Shown: piece after piece, positions 216 through 14,690 of the stretch
Layout of the letters: each line of letters starts with the position of its first letter
Position numbering within the stretch: the first letter of the stretch is position 1
Origin: a virus
Strand: one strand, 5' to 3'
Virus record (IMG/VR): IMGVR_UViG_3300023507_000010
Location: 1-25,045 of that record
DNA: 25,045 bases
Notes under the pieces: generated by a model
What the model saw: the letters and a program-made list of their open reading frames with translations, nothing else
Databases searched by the model: none
Told to the model about the DNA's origin: nothing
Program-made: the position numbers and the translations under genes

Positions 216-1283
216 TCAGACCTGGAGGAGCTCCTGATTCTCCTTGGCGAAGTCGAGGAAGGACTTAGTGTCTGCTACCCCAATGTCCTTGATAAGAGCC
301 TGACGGACGAAAGCAGTCTGGAACTCAATGTGATCGATGCGAGTGATGAACTTCATCAGGTCATCGAAGTTATCCTTGCAGGCGTGCATGGCCAGCATGG
401 TAGTGACTGCATAGAGAGCATCCAGCTTCTTGGGGGTCTTGGCCTTTTCGGGCTTCTTGAGAATCTCTTCAGGATCAGGAAGCTCGTTGAAGATGCGAAT
501 CATGGCTTCGAGCTCTCCTGCAGGGCCTTCTCCGATACAGCCAGCCAGAAGCTGGAAACGAATGCTATCGGGAGCATCGATATGCTTGGAAGCCTGTGCA
601 GTGCTCCTAGGAGTGCAGTTGATGTCCAGCTTGGGATCGAAGCTATCCAGCAGATTCGGACGATACTTGGCAAAGGCAACGACTGCCGGATGCAAGTTGG
701 TCTTGGTGGCCCATTCAACCCAATCTTCAAGGCTGAATTCGAGCGGAAGCTCGTTCATGCGGTCCTTGATGTGCGTGGGCACCTTGTGAGCGTCAGCACG
801 GTCCTTCTGACGGTTACCGGCTGCCACGAAGCGCCATCCTTCGGGGATGACATGCTTACCGATACGATGCTCCAGAAACGCTTCAGAGAAGCCGCCCATG
901 GTGCTCGGAGATGCCTGAGGCAGCTCATCAACGAAGATGATGCCCTGACCGAAGAGAGGGATAAAATCCGGACGAGCGAACATGTATGCCCGCTTGTCTT
1001 CCGTGAAAGTGGGGAGGCCATACAGATCCATAGTAGTAATCATGTTGGCCCGGAAGTCGATAAAGCCGAAACCAGTTTCCATTTCTTCTTTGGAGTGCTC
1101 AGAGTTACCCCGGAAGAGATAGAACTCCTTGCCTGCTTCCTTGGCAAGTTCTTTAGTTGCCTGCAGTACCAGACTGGACTTACCAACGCCAGGGCTGGAA
1201 GTGAGAAACGGAATGATTCCGTGATTCACACAGTGCTTGATGGCAGAGATGGCGGATTTGGGGGTGATTGCAAGAGTGCTCAT
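216..1283 (-). CDS. MoxR-type AAA+ ATPase
   Basis: 355 residues. An AAA+ ATPase of the MoxR/AAA_5 kind is indicated by Walker A SSPGVGKSS (about 29-37), Walker B GIIFVDEL (114-121) and a sensor-1-like AAGN (154-157), followed by a helical lid. MoxR ATPases usually remodel or activate a partner, often a VWA-domain protein. No VWA gene is visible here, although one could lie beyond the window edge. The start ATG overlaps the stop of the upstream array gene (ATGA), so it is the last gene of the leftward early operon and probably translated by coupling. A plausible role is remodelling of a phage or host complex during replication or takeover. The family call is firm and the role is inferred. Confidence 0.85.
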   Translation of the reverse strand: MSTLAITPKSAISAIKHCVNHGIIPFLTSSPGVGKSSLVLQATKELAKEAGKEFYLFRGNSEHSKEEMETGFGFIDFRANMITTMDLYGLPTFTEDKRAYMFARPDFIPLFGQGIIFVDELPQASPSTMGGFSEAFLEHRIGKHVIPEGWRFVAAGNRQKDRADAHKVPTHIKDRMNELPLEFSLEDWVEWATKTNLHPAVVAFAKYRPNLLDSFDPKLDINCTPRSTAQASKHIDAPDSIRFQLLAGCIGEGPAGELEAMIRIFNELPDPEEILKKPEKAKTPKKLDALYAVTTMLAMHACKDNFDDLMKFITRIDHIEFQTAFVRQALIKDIGVADTKSFLDFAKENQELLQV

Positions 1284-1474
1284 TTATTACCTCCTAGTTT
1301 GTTTAACGGTTTGAAACAATTTTCTACTTCTTCATGAAGAAGAACATGCCCATCTAAGAAAAAACAGAGCTCTCTTGGAGCAAGGTTGACTATAGACCCG
1401 ATTGGATATTTAGTGTTAAGTTTCTTATTAATATGCCAACTTGGATCGAGTTCTTTAATTTTAATAGCTTTCAT
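1280..1474 (-). CDS. Array paralogue 13 (MKAI-x-x-K family)
   Basis: 64 residues. Shows the array family pattern: an N-terminal strand MKAIKIKEL, the central KYPIGSIV segment (about 22-29), and a C-terminal EEVENCFKPL. This predicts a small beta-rich, possibly SH3-like barrel (inference from the pattern only). It is the last copy before the MoxR ATPase. Its ATG overlaps the upstream copy by 4 nt and its TGA overlaps the ATPase start by 4 nt. The C-terminus ends NKLGGNK rather than in the DES tail of the central copies, which fits its plain ATGA junction. Function unknown. Confidence 0.75.
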   Translation of the reverse strand: MKAIKIKELDPSWHINKKLNTKYPIGSIVNLAPRELCFFLDGHVLLHEEVENCFKPLNKLGGNK

Positions 1475-1662
1475 TCAAGTAACTTTAATTCCTCTGGATA
1501 AAAAGTCCAACGTCGGTTTCTATAAAAGAATTTATAGAAACGACCGTCTGAACTTATATTTAAATCGAGAACAGAACCTAATTTAAAAGTTCGTTTGTAT
1601 TCTTCGTGCATAGCAGGGTCATCATCCTGTCTGAGAACTAGTTGTACTAGTATCGCTTTCAA
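1471..1662 (-). CDS. Array paralogue 12 (MKAI-x-x-K family)
   Basis: 63 residues. N-terminus MKAILVQLV, central FKLGSVLDL, and C-terminal FYPEELKLLE. The usual Lys7 is Gln here (CAA in place of AAA). Because the upstream gene normally finds its TAA stop across codons 6-7 of the following copy, this change removes that stop and leaves the upstream copy with a longer tail. The stop of this gene is an ATGA overlap with copy 13. No clear Shine-Dalgarno sequence; coupled translation is likely. Function unknown. Confidence 0.7.
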   Translation of the reverse strand: MKAILVQLVLRQDDDPAMHEEYKRTFKLGSVLDLNISSDGRFYKFFYRNRRWTFYPEELKLLE

Positions 1663-1840
1663 TGATTTTCAACTCCTCTGGCCTGAACATCCAAGTATTT
1701 CCGTCTTTATCAATAGTCCGATACATCCCTTCAACTAAGAAGACATCAAGGATTTGACCGATATGGAATCTTTCCAGGTATGAATTGAAATAGAGTTTGC
1801 CTATTTCAGCTTCATTCCATTTGATTAATATGGCTTTCAT
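1622..1840 (-). CDS. Array paralogue 11 with extended tail
   Basis: 72 residues. MKAILIKW start, FHIGQILDV core and RPEELKIIESD near the C-terminus. The last eight residues (TSTTSSQTG region) are an extension read over the start of copy 12, producing a 41-nt overlap in place of the 20-nt overlap typical of the array. The core is recognisably the same family as its neighbours, although the middle segment (GMYRTIDKDGNTW) is divergent. Function unknown. Confidence 0.7.
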   Translation of the reverse strand: MKAILIKWNEAEIGKLYFNSYLERFHIGQILDVFLVEGMYRTIDKDGNTWMFRPEELKIIESDTSTTSSQTG

Positions 1841-2012
1841 TGAGTACTTTGAAAAAGTGTTTCAGAGTGTGTTGGTCAATCAACTGACTAAATTTGTAAT
1901 AGTATTGGTCGCGTATTTTTTCAAATTCTACTATTTGACCTGGTAAAAATTTATAGGATTCTTTTCTATAAAGACGATTTAAAGTAAATGGTTTAACACA
2001 TATCACTTTCAT
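1812..2012 (-). CDS. Array paralogue 10 (divergent)
   Basis: 66 residues. Starts MKVICVKPF, has the central FLPGQIVEF segment and ends KHFFKVLNESHINQME. The NES tail is the array signature, but the reading frame runs three codons past the usual stop, giving a 29-nt overlap with copy 11. Tyr, Phe and Lys are abundant. Function unknown; membership rests on N-terminus, core and junction structure. Confidence 0.7.
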   Translation of the reverse strand: MKVICVKPFTLNRLYRKESYKFLPGQIVEFEKIRDQYYYKFSQLIDQHTLKHFFKVLNESHINQME

Positions 2013-2262
2013 TGATTACAAAACAACTTAATTCGTTATCAAGTATTGGAAACCCGTTTCTATCAGGCCCCTCCCACATAGTATTTTCTAAATGTGGGTA
2101 ATCGTTTTTATTTGGGATAAGTACAGCGTAATTGGCACGAGCATATGGAAGGCCTTCTAATTTAATCAATTCAAAAATAGTAAACAAGGGAAAATAAATA
2201 TTAAAATATTTATTCAGTTCTACCCCTTGTTCTGGTAAGTGTTTAATCAAGATCGCTTTCAT
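1993..2262 (-). CDS. Array paralogue 9 (long form)
   Basis: 89 residues, one of two long copies. MKAILIKHLP start, YFPLFTIFEL core, then an inserted segment ending DNELSCFVINESDMC. It closely parallels copy 8 in the start and the C-terminal half, so the two probably arose from a recent duplication. The stop lies within the first seven codons of copy 10 (20-nt overlap). The glycine of the core P-x-G motif seen in short copies is replaced in both long copies. Function unknown. Confidence 0.75.
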   Translation of the reverse strand: MKAILIKHLPEQGVELNKYFNIYFPLFTIFELIKLEGLPYARANYAVLIPNKNDYPHLENTMWEGPDRNGFPILDNELSCFVINESDMC

Positions 2263-2515
2263 CAGTTACAAAACAGTCCCTCTCATCTTCTTCGATAGGG
2301 AAAGCATTATAGGATTCCCCTTGCATATCAGTACCACCAGCTATACAAGTTTTAAACTTCTGTAAAATTTCTTCTGACTCAACAATCACACCGAAAGCGT
2401 ATCCGTTTGCTACTTCTGTTTCGATTTCAAACTGAGAAAGTAAAGGAAAATACTTATTAAACGTGCGGTTTGCTGCACCTTTATTGGGTAAGTGCTTAAT
2501 CAGAATTGCTTTCAT
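2243..2515 (-). CDS. Array paralogue 8 (long form)
   Basis: 90 residues. MKAILIKHLP start, NKYFPLLSQFEI core, and an acidic C-terminus EEDERDCFVTDESDLD. Sister of copy 9 by length and by the shared MKAILIKHLP, YFPL and CFV..ESD elements. The final DESDLD and stop are encoded by the first 20 nt of copy 9 in another frame. No Shine-Dalgarno sequence is evident upstream of the ATG, so initiation probably depends on ribosomes terminating on copy 7. Function unknown. Confidence 0.75.
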   Translation of the reverse strand: MKAILIKHLPNKGAANRTFNKYFPLLSQFEIETEVANGYAFGVIVESEEILQKFKTCIAGGTDMQGESYNAFPIEEDERDCFVTDESDLD

Positions 2516-2693
2516 CGATTATCCGAAAATATTTTGGGTCAAGTCTGCAGTTTCCTGCTAATACTTTAGCGCTTGGGTAGAAAATTGTAGATCCATCAGT
2601 TTCAAAAATAGAGCCTACAGGATATTTCTGATGAAAGTGTTCTATTTTTGATGGATGAATATAATTAAGAGGTTTAACCAGAATCGCTTTCAT
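2496..2693 (-). CDS. Array paralogue 7 (MKAI-x-x-K family)
   Basis: 65 residues. MKAILVKPLN start, HQKYPVGSIFE core (about 24-34) and C-terminal RLDPKYFRIIDESNSD. Very similar to copy 6, sharing the spacing, the QKYP-hydrophobic-G core and the FRIIDES ending. The last residues and stop are double-coded with the start of copy 8 (20-nt overlap). Predicted small beta-rich protein; function unknown. Confidence 0.78.
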   Translation of the reverse strand: MKAILVKPLNYIHPSKIEHFHQKYPVGSIFETDGSTIFYPSAKVLAGNCRLDPKYFRIIDESNSD

Positions 2694-2874
2694 CGATTAT
2701 TCGAAAAAATCTTGAGTCAAACGCACATAGCCCATTTAGTACAGAATCAGGTTCATAATAAACAAAACCATTGTCACTATTAAAAACAACACCTATAGGA
2801 TATTTTTGATTAAAATGATCTTCATGCTTTTTGATAGGCCAGTTAACTGGTTTAATCAAAATCGCTTTCTTCAT
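2674..2874 (-). CDS. Array paralogue 6 (MKAI-x-x-K family)
   Basis: 66 residues from the ATG at 2874, which gives MKKAILIKPV and aligns with the other copies. A longer frame from 2913 exists but lies inside the preceding gene and adds unrelated residues, so I reject that start. Core FNQKYPIGVVF and C-terminus SRFFRIIDESDSG. The gene overlaps copy 5 by 23 nt at its start and copy 7 by 20 nt at its end. The additional Lys at position 3 explains the 23-nt overlap. Function unknown. Confidence 0.75.
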   Translation of the reverse strand: MKKAILIKPVNWPIKKHEDHFNQKYPIGVVFNSDNGFVYYEPDSVLNGLCAFDSRFFRIIDESDSG

Positions 2875-3043
2875 AGGGAAGTAACCTAAAACAATCCAAT
2901 TCGTCGCCTTCAAGCGTTAGACCATCTACATTAGGATCTTCGGCGCTGATAGTAAGCTCATCTACTGTGACTTCGAAGATATAGCCTGGAAGGTAATTAG
3001 GTAGGTCAGGGTGTTGTTTTTTCAGGATCAACTTCAATTTCAC
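2852..3043 (-). CDS. Array paralogue 5 (divergent)
   Basis: 63 residues. MKLKLILKK start, LPNYLPGYIFEVTVDE core and acidic C-terminus LEGDELDCFRLLPYEESDFD. Divergent in the first ten residues but keeps the P-G-x-I-F-E core, the CFR element and the ESD tail. It starts inside the C-terminal extension of copy 4 (38-nt overlap) and ends inside the first eight codons of copy 6. Function unknown. Confidence 0.7.
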   Translation of the reverse strand: MKLKLILKKQHPDLPNYLPGYIFEVTVDELTISAEDPNVDGLTLEGDELDCFRLLPYEESDFD

Positions 3044-3206
3044 GGAAGCATTCCTCTACTTCTTTTGGGTACAAATACCAGCCATCAAGTGTTTGACCAT
3101 AATGGTTAACACATATTTCAACTATAGAACCTACAGGATACTTTTGATTGATTTCAACATTTACTGAATATTTAATAGGCAACGGTTTAACGAATATAGC
3201 TTTCAT
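3006..3206 (-). CDS. Array paralogue 4 (MKAI-x-x-K family)
   Basis: 66 residues. MKAIFVKPLP start, INQKYPVGSIVEI core and PKEVEECFREIEV at the C-terminus, followed by a short extension DPEKTTP read over the start of copy 5. A good consensus copy. Its own start is used in another frame as the end of the broken copy 3. Function unknown. Confidence 0.78.
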   Translation of the reverse strand: MKAIFVKPLPIKYSVNVEINQKYPVGSIVEICVNHYGQTLDGWYLYPKEVEECFREIEVDPEKTTP

Positions 3207-3431
3207 CTATAATTTTGAAGCATTCGAGTTCATGTCGATAAATAGGGTAATAAGGTTCACTAAGCTCGTTTGCTAATTCAGAATTATTAGTTATTCCTAA
3301 ACCAAGAACAAAAGCTTGATAGTTATCTGCTAAATAGATGCAATCGAATATCGAACCTACAGAAAAAAGCTTATTAAATTCCTTATTTCTTCATCGTCAT
3401 TAGGTAGGGGCTTAATTAGTATCGCTTTCAT
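3187..3431 (-). pseudogene. Frameshifted array paralogue 3
   Basis: The ATG at 3431 opens MKAILIKPLPNDDEE and then leaves frame, reaching TAG after 24 codons. In the minus-one frame the family sequence resumes at once: NKEFNKLFSVGSIFD, then a long middle segment, HELECFKIIDES and a TAA at 3187-3189 inside copy 4. One missing base, most simply an A in the GAAGAAATAAGG stretch near codon 15, explains both halves. The restored protein would be about 81 residues, close to copies 1 and 2 (80 and 77). No canonical slippery heptamer is present. A sequencing error in a short A-run is possible. Confidence 0.75.
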
Positions 3432-3661
3432 TTAAGCACTTTGAAACTTGTTTCAAGTTCTTCTTTAAATAAGGGAAAACAGCCAAATTCACCATAATCC
3501 TTAGCAAAAGCATCGGGGACCTTCAAACCAAATTCAAACATAACATCATCTTGTATTGAAATAACTTCGAATACAGTTCCTATAGAAAAAGTCTCGTTGA
3601 ATTCTTTATTCGACGGTCCTACTGGTGGGGTTGGAAGAGGCTTAACAAATATCGCTTTCAT
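3428..3661 (-). CDS. Array paralogue 2 (MKAI-x-x-K family)
   Basis: 77 residues. MKAIFVKPLP start, SNKEFNETFSIGTVFEV core and C-terminal FKEELETSFKVLK. Close sister of copy 1 through the shared SNKEFNE, FS-L/I-GTVFE and GLKV elements. Both junctions are plain ATGA overlaps of 4 nt, so the DES tail is absent. Function unknown. Confidence 0.78.
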   Translation of the reverse strand: MKAIFVKPLPTPPVGPSNKEFNETFSIGTVFEVISIQDDVMFEFGLKVPDAFAKDYGEFGCFPLFKEELETSFKVLK

Positions 3662-3900
3662 TCAAGTATCTTGAAACAAGTTTTAAATTCGTTGTCGTAT
3701 AAAGGAAATCCACCACACTCTCTATATTCTTCTTGGAAAACACCAGAAACTTTTAAGCCTATTTTAAAATCCTGATTGTCTTTAATAGCGATAGTTTCGA
3801 ATACTGTTCCTAAAGAAAATAATTCATTAAACTCTTTATTCGAACCTACGTAAAATCCATTTTTGTTAGTAGGCAGTGGTTTAATAAAAACAACTCTCAT
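3658..3900 (-). CDS. Array paralogue 1 (first copy after polymerase)
   Basis: 80 residues. MRVVFIKPLP start, SNKEFNELFSLGTVFET core and FKTCFKILE C-terminus. It follows the DNA polymerase directly: the polymerase stop TAA and this ATG share one base (TAATG), so the array is in the polymerase operon and probably coupled to it. Its stop overlaps the start of copy 2 by 4 nt. Function unknown. Confidence 0.78.
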   Translation of the reverse strand: MRVVFIKPLPTNKNGFYVGSNKEFNELFSLGTVFETIAIKDNQDFKIGLKVSGVFQEEYRECGGFPLYDNEFKTCFKILE

Positions 3901-5741
3901 TAGGGTTTCTCGTACCTCTTACTAATAACGTATTCGCCTTCGCAGGGGAATCCGGGTGCCCAGGGAGGCGGTGTCTTGAATGCTTCGTCCATGATTCTGG
4001 CTGCTTTTTCTTCCTCTCCTTCTGGGATAAGGAAAACTCCTTCGTCGTGTACCCTAAGAACGAGGGGGTAGTGTTCTGCAATTTGGTTAAGCTGCCAAAA
4101 TACGAAATGCCTTGCGAATGCTTGGTTGAGTCTGCCTGTTAACAAACCCCCGAAGACTTTGGAGTCCTTACCGTACTTCCAACCATCACCAGTATATCGA
4201 AGGTTAGGAAATTCATGCGGCAGACCTGATACATGAGAAACGACACGGTTCTGTTGCGTTGAATAAGCGATCCTGTCTGTTCCTGGAATGTACCAGAACA
4301 TCTGTTGCCCTTGGTACATGGCTGCGATGAACCGTTCCATGAGGTTCCAGAACTCTGGAACTTTAGAGTGTGCTTGGCGATAGGCCGCATGGATGAGCTG
4401 GGCTTCTGCATCCGAGAGTTGGATCGGAGGCCCCATAAGCCCTGCAGCGAAGATGTACTGCATCTTTCTCCAGGAAGTCTGGTACTGAAGACTCAGCATT
4501 GCAACCTTGCCAACAGCACGTTCCTTGTTTGTTATTTCTTCAATAGGCTTGTGATAAATGTGGTGAGCAGCAAAGTGTGTGTACAAGTCTTCACCAGCCC
4601 GTATCAGTGTGAGCTTGTCATGCTGGCCTGCAAGGTAAAACATGCTTCGAAGCTCGATATTCGAGCTATCTATGACTCCAAGCGAATAACCTGGAGGGGC
4701 CATGATGGCTTCACGAAGCTTGCTACCTCGCGGGAAATTTTGTTTGTTACTTGACTGTCCACCTGAATCCCTGAATGTAGCCTTGGCACCTGCATAGTTC
4801 AGGTAAACGCGACATTGCGGTGTATCGTCCTTGAGCATCCTCTCAGCTCTTGTCTTGAGGATGTTACTCTTTACATTGAGTCGTGCCTCGCACAAGATGC
4901 GAACAGTTGGGTCAGGGTGTTGCTGAAGAGCTTGAAACTCTAGATCCGCTTTGGCGAGCGCCGGTATCTTTTTAGCAGGATTCGATGGACTGGGTTTGTA
5001 GGGTACCTCTACGAATTCCTGAAGAGCCTCTTCAAACTGTTTGTTCGAAGAAAGTACCTTTTTTGTCTGGCTAGGAGTCAATCCAAGTATTTGGCTTGCC
5101 TGATTGAGCAAGCCAGCTCGCTCTTGCTCAGCTTGTTCGATGGCTTCTTCCAAAAGCTGAGTATCAAGCACTAGCCTAGGCTCCACATACATGCGTATGG
5201 TGTGGTGAAGCGTAGTATGCTCTTCTTCAGGTAGTGCTTGGCTGAAGAGCTGGTAAAGCTGATAAGTAAGCTCCACGTCTTGTTGGCAGTACTCCACAAG
5301 ATGTTCCTGCTCGTTTGGTGTCAGGTCGTCCCAGTGTTTACCTTTGACAGAGTCGAGCACACCTGAAAGTTTGGCATCTTGAAGGAACTGACGAGCCAGT
5401 GAATTAAGGCTGAAAGACTCCAGGGCGTTGTTGAATAGCGCCCTGGCTGCCGACAAGGTACAGAAATACCTGAACTTCCCGTGAGGTAGTAGCCCTAGCT
5501 CGTCAAGAACGACAGTATCGAACTGGAGGTTGTGCCCACAAAGGATCGTACCTTCTGGCAAATCTTCAAGGATCTGCTTGATCTGATTAGGCTTCACCCA
5601 GCGGGTAGGTTGGTTATCCAGCTTGATACACACGCCGAACAATTCGAAGTTCGGATGTCTCACGTACTCGATGTACGTGAGTTTCTTAAGAGTGCATTGC
5701 GTGTCGTAGTATGTTTCTATATCAAGAGTAAGTACTGACAT
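3900..5741 (-). CDS. Family A DNA polymerase with 3'-5' exonuclease
   Basis: 613 residues. The N-terminal proofreading exonuclease has LDIET (D7, E9), GHNLQFD (69-75) and an Exo III-like YCQQD (151-155). The polymerase domain has motif A IDSSNIELR (357-365), a motif B region with R408, K412 and Y420, and motif C VHDE (564-567). No 5' nuclease domain is present, as usual for phage family A enzymes. Motif A has DSSN where many relatives have DYSQ. It replicates the phage genome together with the primase-helicase upstream. The start places the DIET motif at the expected N-terminal position; no strong Shine-Dalgarno sequence is seen before it. Its stop shares a base with the first array gene. Confidence 0.95.
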   Translation of the reverse strand: MSVLTLDIETYYDTQCTLKKLTYIEYVRHPNFELFGVCIKLDNQPTRWVKPNQIKQILEDLPEGTILCGHNLQFDTVVLDELGLLPHGKFRYFCTLSAARALFNNALESFSLNSLARQFLQDAKLSGVLDSVKGKHWDDLTPNEQEHLVEYCQQDVELTYQLYQLFSQALPEEEHTTLHHTIRMYVEPRLVLDTQLLEEAIEQAEQERAGLLNQASQILGLTPSQTKKVLSSNKQFEEALQEFVEVPYKPSPSNPAKKIPALAKADLEFQALQQHPDPTVRILCEARLNVKSNILKTRAERMLKDDTPQCRVYLNYAGAKATFRDSGGQSSNKQNFPRGSKLREAIMAPPGYSLGVIDSSNIELRSMFYLAGQHDKLTLIRAGEDLYTHFAAHHIYHKPIEEITNKERAVGKVAMLSLQYQTSWRKMQYIFAAGLMGPPIQLSDAEAQLIHAAYRQAHSKVPEFWNLMERFIAAMYQGQQMFWYIPGTDRIAYSTQQNRVVSHVSGLPHEFPNLRYTGDGWKYGKDSKVFGGLLTGRLNQAFARHFVFWQLNQIAEHYPLVLRVHDEGVFLIPEGEEEKAARIMDEAFKTPPPWAPGFPCEGEYVISKRYEKP

Positions 5742-6901: not shown

Positions 6902-7294
6902 TTAGATCTCCTTAGTGGTGTCTGTACCTTCTTTAATTTGTTCTAAAAACCACTTTAGTTTTTCTCTTTGAAAAGAAGGCAAGATTTCAATCGCCCTCTT
7001 TTTAGTTATTTGCTTAAAAAGTTTGTAATCAAAATTTGATGCGTATCGATTAAGATTTTTCCCGTGTTTAAGAAGATAAGCTGCTTTGTAATGTTTTAAC
7101 TTGTCTCCTCGGAGAGACCCAAAAAGAGAGTAACCAGTATGAGTCGGAATATCGAAGAGGTTAATTATCTTAGTTACTACTGAGCTATAAGAATGAGGGT
7201 TGTACCCTTCTTCAAGAACTTTAATAAGCCTGTTCCTGGTTACTGTTGATAGTTCAGAAGGGTGTAGGGTAATTGTATGTGTAACACCTTTCAT
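6902..7294 (-). CDS. Unknown basic protein
   Basis: 130 residues from the ATG at 7294 (MKGVTHTITLHPSEL). This start is preferred over an in-frame ATG at 7312 because AAGGA lies 7 nt upstream and the ATG forms an ATGA overlap with the preceding stop. Basic and Tyr/Lys-rich, with a C-terminal helix LKWFLEQIKEGTD. The middle (RGDKLKHYKAAYLLKHG) could bind nucleic acid, but no motif is clear. Function unknown. Confidence 0.65.
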   Translation of the reverse strand: MKGVTHTITLHPSELSTVTRNRLIKVLEEGYNPHSYSSVVTKIINLFDIPTHTGYSLFGSLRGDKLKHYKAAYLLKHGKNLNRYASNFDYKLFKQITKKRAIEILPSFQREKLKWFLEQIKEGTDTTKEI

Positions 7295-7497
7295 TCGAGT
7301 TTCCTTAACCATTTTTTATTGAAGCAAAAGCCCTCTGAGTTACGCGTCTGGACAAAACGTGGTGTAACAACTACAACAGTGTCAACCACTCCATGGAAAT
7401 GATCCATTTCTTCAAGCCAATAAGGCCGCTCTCTTATATCTTCCGGTTTGATAATTATTACCTTGTCCCCTGGTTTCAATCGAGTTCTTTCAGACAT
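7291..7497 (-). CDS. Second mini-array, copy 3 (KOW/SH3-like)
   Basis: 68 residues: MSERTRLKPGDKVIIIKPED, then a Val-rich strand segment, and NKKWLRKLE at the end. The PGDKVIIIKPED element resembles a KOW/SH3-like strand-turn-strand. It begins with the same MSERT codons as the next copy upstream, because those codons also encode the end (ECLKELD and stop) of that copy in another frame. Divergent in the core, so paralogy is probable rather than certain. Confidence 0.6.
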   Translation of the reverse strand: MSERTRLKPGDKVIIIKPEDIRERPYWLEEMDHFHGVVDTVVVVTPRFVQTRNSEGFCFNKKWLRKLE

Positions 7498-7679
7498 TCA
7501 TTAGCCTCTTCGTCAGTCCAGTAACAAAGATTACCGTTGTTTTTGTGAACAACGCATTTATTTTCTGCGTCAAGAACTACAATAGAACCCACAGGATGAA
7601 GCCTATTTATTCTTTTGTTTGCACTAGCAAACCAATCTAATGGAAGATCTTTAATAACTATGTAAGTTCTTTCAGACAT
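7476..7679 (-). CDS. Second mini-array, copy 2
   Basis: 67 residues: MSERTYIVIKDLP start, INRLHPVGSIVVLD core and TDEEANECLKELD end. The HPVGSIV core and the position of the KDLP element match the large array at 1280-3900, so this is a distant outgroup of the same family. The start overlaps copy 1 by 22 nt and the end overlaps copy 3 by 22 nt. No independent Shine-Dalgarno sequence is obvious. Function unknown. Confidence 0.7.
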   Translation of the reverse strand: MSERTYIVIKDLPLDWFASANKRINRLHPVGSIVVLDAENKCVVHKNNGNLCYWTDEEANECLKELD

Positions 7680-7861
7680 TCATTAACTTCCTTTGGTGTC
7701 CAGACGCAGACGCCTACACAAGAAGAGCATACAAGAGACCCATTACTTCTTAGGTTTCCCGTTATGACAGAGCCAACAGGATGGTTTTTGTTGATGAGCA
7801 GATTGAAATTCGAATGTTCTTCACTCAGGGCCTTGACTACAATGTAAGTTTTCGTAGGCAT
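7658..7861 (-). CDS. Second mini-array, copy 1
   Basis: 67 residues: MPTKTYIVVKALS start, INKNHPVGSVITG core and TPKEVNECLKELT end. It is about as long as copy 2 and aligns with it without gaps at the ends. Its first codons also encode the end of a truncated copy upstream. AGAGGA lies about 12 nt before the ATG, further than ideal, so coupling may matter. Function unknown. Confidence 0.7.
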   Translation of the reverse strand: MPTKTYIVVKALSEEHSNFNLLINKNHPVGSVITGNLRSNGSLVCSSCVGVCVWTPKEVNECLKELT

Positions 7862-14300: not shown

Positions 14301-14690
14301 CATTTTTACTAGGAGCACTCCGTACCTATGTATTTAAATACATTTTTACTAGGAGCACTCCGTACCTATGTATTTAAATACATTTTTACTAGGAACACTT
14401 CGTACCTATGTATTTAAATATATTTTTACTAGGAACACTCCGTACCTATGTATTTAAATATATTTTACTAGGAGCACTCCGTACCTATGTATTTAAATAT
14501 ATTTTACTAGGAGCACTCCGTACCTATGTATTTAAATATATTTTTACTAGGAACACTCCGTACCTATGTATTTAAATATATTTTTACTAGGAACACTCCG
14601 TACCTATATATTTAAATATATTTTTACTAGGAACACTCCGTACCTATATATTTAAATATATTTTTACTAGGAACACTCCGTACCTATGTA
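14301..14690. repeat. Ten tandem copies of a 40-bp repeat
   Basis: Units begin at 14301, 14341, 14381, 14421, 14461, 14500, 14539, 14579, 14619 and 14659. Each has ACTAGGA(G/A)CACTCC, then GTACCTAT(G/A) and TATTTAAATA. Units 5 and 6 are 39 bp after loss of one T. The last unit breaks off before the TTTAAATA part. There are no variable spacers, so it is not CRISPR. It lies at the divergent centre, 75 bp upstream of terS. Candidate roles: terminase recognition (pac), replication origin, or an array of regulator-binding or weak promoter sites. Confidence 0.95.

Follow-up and report, generated by a model that had tools for sequence, protein, structure and literature searches.

Co-directional prokaryotic genes can overlap in phase 2, and simulations indicate that most such overlaps are produced by 3' elongation of the upstream gene, selection being unnecessary (PMC3887535). 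Native termination–reinitiation pairs are found chiefly at distances of -4, -1 and -8 nt, longer overlaps being rare (PMC10666635). A documented coupled overlap of -50 nt is that of the coat and lysis genes of phage MS2 (PMC12548453). Here, we describe a viral array of small paralogous genes in which 1-nt and 4-nt overlaps stand beside overlaps of 20 to 41 nt.

An array of small paralogous genes

The window analysed is a 25,045-base IMG/VR virus record. Its plus strand encodes terminase, portal and major head proteins, its minus strand a primase, a DNA polymerase and an AAA ATPase. Between the DNA polymerase gene (3900-5741) and a MoxR-like ATPase gene (216-1283) lies a minus-strand tandem array of related small genes (1280-3900), consisting of 12 intact copies and one frameshifted unit (Table 1). 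The members are roughly 17-54% identical to each other and follow the consensus MKAILIKxLP...FPxGSIFE...E...CFKxL, the family marks being MKAILIK at the N-terminus, FN.KYP.GSIFE, and ECFK.L at the C-terminus. The array proteins that were scanned gave no significant Pfam or PHROGs family match. In a comparison with solved structures for an SH3-like small barrel, the best Foldseek E was 0.62 and VIA-align scores against SH3 domains reached Z = 4.0, over 47 residues; among viral predicted structures, the Foldseek matches were for the most part small phage proteins that are uncharacterised (best E 0.055). Within the last codons of g1474 (L-G-G-N-K; 1280-1300, minus strand) lies AGGAGG, which serves the ATPase gene as ribosome binding site.

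No relatives of the array were found in the collections searched. IMG/VR searches with the ATPase and the DNA polymerase yielded no confirmed relative. A search with the major capsid protein gave 54 relatives, in whose available stretches the start motif did not occur in array form. A family profile found nothing in 13 whole capsid-relative records, some of 40-67 kb, in a search that had no positive control; six of these 13 records carry a related DNA polymerase, and the ATPase was found in none of 19 capsid-relative records. The array proteins had no tblastn match among phages and plasmids, the single match of the array DNA to phages was spurious, and the family patterns met one unrelated gene in IMG/VR and otherwise nothing. 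With its dozen diverged members and no significant match in Pfam, PHROGs or the phage and plasmid collections, the array is a more interesting object than its overlaps, and the region is possibly a fast-evolving accessory one.

Two further family members, g7861 and g7679, form a second small group (7291-7861, minus strand) whose overlaps with the following gene measure 22 nt and lie in the other phase. Here, ATGTCTGAAAGAACT reads M-S-E-R-T in one frame and the conserved C-L-K-E-L core in that of the upstream gene, so that this overlap touches a conserved part on its upstream side. A gene at 7497 has MSERT in common, the remainder being unlike the family by eye. Elsewhere in the window, close to the point where gene direction changes, an ORF of repeated peptide (MYLNIFLLGTLRTYVFKYILLGALRTYVFKYILLGALRTYVFKYIF...; 14408-14575, plus strand) corresponds to a short tandem DNA repeat.

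Table 1. Genes and junctions of the array and adjoining or related features, in window positions
Feature	Position	Strand	Remarks
g3900	3658..3900	-	First array gene (MRVVFIKPLP...CFKILE-stop); starts TAATG on DNA polymerase stop
g3661	3428..3661	-	Array gene; ATGA overlap of 4 nt with g3900
g3431	3187..3431	-	Array unit with frameshift; DESYIR-stop end inside g3206
g3206	3006..3206	-	Array gene
g3043	2852..3043	-	Array gene; GTG start; end EESDFD-stop
g2874	2674..2874	-	Array gene; end DESDSG-stop
g2693	2496..2693	-	Array gene; end DESNSD-stop; structure model m7f5e1e6b15ec
g2515	2243..2515	-	Array gene; end DESDLD-stop
g2262	1993..2262	-	Array gene; end NESDMC-stop
g2012	1812..2012	-	Array gene
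g1840	1622..1840	-	Array gene
g1662	1471..1662	-	Array gene; TTG start; ends at ATGA of g1474
g1474	1280..1474	-	Last array gene; AGGAGG of ATPase gene within 3' end
MoxR-like ATPase gene	216..1283	-	Sole strong Shine-Dalgarno site adjoining the array
g3431/g3206 junction	3187..3206	-	20 nt; g3206 start = tail of broken g3431 unit
g3206/g3043 overlap	3006..3043	-	38 nt
g3043/g2874 junction	2852..2874	-	23 nt
g2874/g2693 junction	2674..2693	-	20 nt; ATGAAAGCGATTCTGGTTAA
g2693/g2515 junction	2496..2515	-	20 nt
g2515/g2262 junction	2243..2262	-	20 nt
g2262/g2012 junction	1993..2012	-	20 nt
g2012/g1840 overlap	1812..1840	-	29 nt; codon 6 = ATC, no TAA at nt 20
g1840/g1662 overlap	1622..1662	-	41 nt; TTG start, codon 6 = GTA
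Second small group, same family (g7861, g7679)	7476..7861	-	22-nt overlaps, other phase

Junctions between the array genes

From upstream to downstream, the overlaps measure 1, 4, 4, 20 (broken unit), 38, 23, 20, 20, 20, 20, 29, 41, 4 and 4 nt, the 1-nt overlap lying at 3900 and those of 4 nt at 3661, 3431, 1474 and 1283. The nine overlaps of 20 to 41 nt are all on the same strand and of length 3n+2, with the upstream stop inside the downstream gene; the first of the nine (20 nt at 3206) comes from the broken unit. The starts at 2693, 2515, 2262 and 2012 each overlap the preceding gene by exactly 20 nt, and the 23-nt overlap at 2874 (ATGAAGAAAGCG..., M-K-K-A-I-L-I-K) corresponds to one extra codon. 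At 2693, ATGAAAGCGATTCTGGTTAA encodes M-K-A-I-L-V and, read one base earlier, D-E-S-D-S-G-stop. The first-pass annotation had derived the TAA from the Lys7 codon alone; in fact, its T closes codon 6 (ATT or GTT), and Lys7 contributes AA.

That annotation also listed six junctions of 20 to 23 nt. Five of them (2874, 2693, 2515, 2262 and 2012) stand, and the gene preceding that at 3206 has an open frame only past a frameshift. The DESYIR-stop frame at 3206 has no ATG, GTG or TTG start of its own and is part of the unit starting at 3431, in which a single frameshift lies between NDDE and KEFN. This unit may be a broken gene (pseudogene) or a sequence or assembly error, the two being indistinguishable. 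With the corrections at 3206 and in the origin of the TAA, the overlaps are real and the pattern had been well read.

Origin of the repeated overlap

At all 14 starts examined, A comes next, and hence the upstream phase-1 frame ends at NTGA (TGA, nt 4). Where the third base of codon 6 is T, the upstream phase-2 frame meets TAA at nt 20, with the exception of the start at 1474, where an extra TAA in phase 2 ends at nt 14. Where codon 6 is ATC (1840) or GTA (1662), the overlap extends to 29 or 41 nt. The protein motif of the downstream start thus fixes the phase-1 and phase-2 stops, so that the overlap length can be read off from the downstream start. Because neighbouring paralogs have a common junction type, the repeated junctions are not independent events.

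The best and simplest account, and probably the right one, is that upstream genes ran on into the next stop and that the resulting junctions were copied with the genes by tandem duplication. The shared start, roughly ATGAAAGCNATNNTNRTTAAR, closes each of the other two frames, one by TGA at nt 2-4 and one by TAA at nt 18-20. If an upstream copy ends in phase 1, it stops at ATGA; a copy shifted by one nucleotide into phase 2 runs on six codons to TAA, and such run-on copies would then have been duplicated along with their junctions. The ATGA and 20-nt junction types are one nucleotide before the ATG apart: the spacing between the conserved Phe codon and the ATG that follows is 14 nt at the ATGA junctions 3661 and 3431 (TTCAAGATACTTGA before ATG) and 13 nt at the 20-nt junction 3206 (TTCAAAATTATAG before ATG). 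This difference and the existence of tail-less paralogs fit 3' elongation of the upstream gene, in a comparison that has no outgroup for polarity. Close paralog pairs share their junction type (2874/2693, 49% identical; 2515/2262, 41%; 3900/3661, 54%), which fits joint duplication of unit and junction; the family tree is poorly resolved (2 of 12 branches starred), and deeper order was set aside. We infer which way the indel went, the order of duplication and the functional neutrality of the tails.

When public collections were scanned for the start motif, genes unrelated to the array proved to have the same junction. Two related phage contigs (L065, L067) encode an upstream protein that ends in LLKELEDESNTY (DESNTY-stop) over MKAILIKT. 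In a Tissierellia genome (L150), GdpP ends in EEEMKDESNTN-stop over ribosomal protein L9, which begins MKAILIKD, both proteins being confirmed by Pfam. Among the genome-scan matches listed, L130 and L133 are further candidate phase-2 cases with putative upstream ORFs. The same architecture arose independently in the phage contigs and in Tissierellia gdpP-rplI. Because the junction recurs in unrelated genomes and the shared start sequence dictates the overlap, the array overlaps are mostly ordinary.

One feature counts against the run-on account. Of 13 family starts, 11 have T as the last base of codon 6 (or of the codon that precedes the N-terminal Lys), compared with 36% of the other Ile/Val codons of the array. 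The naive P of this excess is 4e-4, calculated over related rows that include starts making no use of the TAA. Such a bias might point to selection favouring the phase-2 stop. However, other columns are equally uniform (TTT in 7 of 8, TCT in 7 of 8 and GAA in 8 of 8), so that selection on the codon-6 wobble base, suggestive alone, is unexceptional among these columns of related rows. A reading in which the shared start is kept as a cassette that stops either wrong frame, by TGA at nt 4 or by TAA at nt 20, allowing duplicated units to be joined in any frame without fusing, is very unlikely; if true, it would favour rapid expansion and contraction of the array. It is also scarcely credible that assembly indels created some of the ORF ends and that the real junctions are ATGA throughout. 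The clear frameshift in unit 3431 could be a sequencing or assembly error, but the four consecutive 20-nt junctions are flanked on either side by long, unbroken ORFs of the family, and each would need a separate error at the same place.

The first-pass annotation had assigned three constrained roles to the overlapping segment. It does serve as start site, as first codons (a predicted N-terminal beta strand) and as the stop of the previous gene; the constraint on the tail is not supported, the tail showing no sign of selection of its own. That the acidic D-E-S-D tail is a functional C-terminus under dual-coding selection is very improbable, although most tails are acidic and such tails occur in more than one unit. 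The E and S of the tail are forced by AAAGC / ATGAAAGC, namely the codons of M-K-A, and the other positions vary freely (D/N/Y and S/L/M/I). In simulations of the five 20-nt junctions that kept the downstream peptide constant and sampled synonymous codons according to their usage in the array, tail likeness equalled the null (mean pairwise BLOSUM62 of 12.5 observed and 12.53, sd 2.81, simulated; P = 0.49), a comparison of five related sequences with low power; tails such as DESDSG and DESNSD are thus no more alike than MKAILIK conservation alone predicts. Members with ATGA junctions end directly after CFKIL-E or SFKVL-K, without a tail. In the AlphaFold2 model of g2693 (mean pLDDT 81.7), the first strand spans residues 2-5 and the last residues 56-58, and the tail lies past the last strand within the least confident block (pLDDT about 53); in that of the tail-less g3900, the last strand ends at residue 79/80 (pLDDT 89). 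The two models indicate that members end either right after the last strand (ATGA) or several residues later.

Translational coupling along the array, as the first-pass annotation had proposed, deserves more weight but is still doubtful. Ribosomes that terminate at the TAA would backtrack by about 17 nt and start anew at the ATG, thereby keeping the array proteins in step without Shine-Dalgarno sites. The overlaps are unbroken through the whole array, and the earlier observation that the six junction ATGs have no Shine-Dalgarno site is borne out (duplex energies of +2.2 to -3.5 kcal/mol, against -11.5 for the ATPase gene); the GTG start at 3043 and the TTG start at 1662 are preceded by GAGG-containing sequence (-6.0 and -8.6). 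The -50 nt of MS2 coat/lysis (PMC12548453) offers a precedent for a longer coupled overlap, but coupled pairs concentrate at -4, -1 and -8 nt (PMC10666635), and the array overlaps are mixed, ranging from 1 to 41 nt. The stop lies within about -8 to +10 nt of the start at 3900, 3661, 3431, 1474 and 1283, and outside this range at the 20- to 41-nt junctions. RNA structure hiding the array starts was considered and rejected: the mRNA around them has no extra structure relative to elsewhere in the array, giving no sign of a start that needs unmasking. Local termination–reinitiation between neighbours is plausible as a putative mechanism and is likelier at the 4-nt junctions.

Comparison with described overlaps

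The 1-nt and 4-nt junctions of the array have exactly the geometry of known termination–reinitiation pairs (ATGA, TAATG; PMC6728339, PMC10666635), whereas its 20- to 41-nt junctions fall outside the usual window. In MS2 coat/lysis (PMC12548453), as in the array, a phage gene starts well upstream of the stop of the previous gene, the coupling being that of MS2. It is explained there by the unfolding of RNA structure, and the array starts have no special structure. Tissierellia gdpP-rplI has the 20-nt overlap, the phase and the DESNTN-stop/MKAILIKD arrangement in common with the array; it differs in being a single junction between unrelated cellular genes, with a GAGGAGG sequence upstream.

A further likeness is to prokaryotic same-strand phase-2 overlapping pairs (PMC3887535, PMC2542354), which are co-directional and short and have the upstream stop in another frame inside the downstream gene. 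The array differs from these pairs in showing four consecutive equal lengths, its genes being paralogs with the same start. The pattern is best explained as run-on overlap combined with tandem duplication and is of an already known kind, in which one conserved start motif and tandem duplication can give a striking repeated overlap without selection on the overlap.
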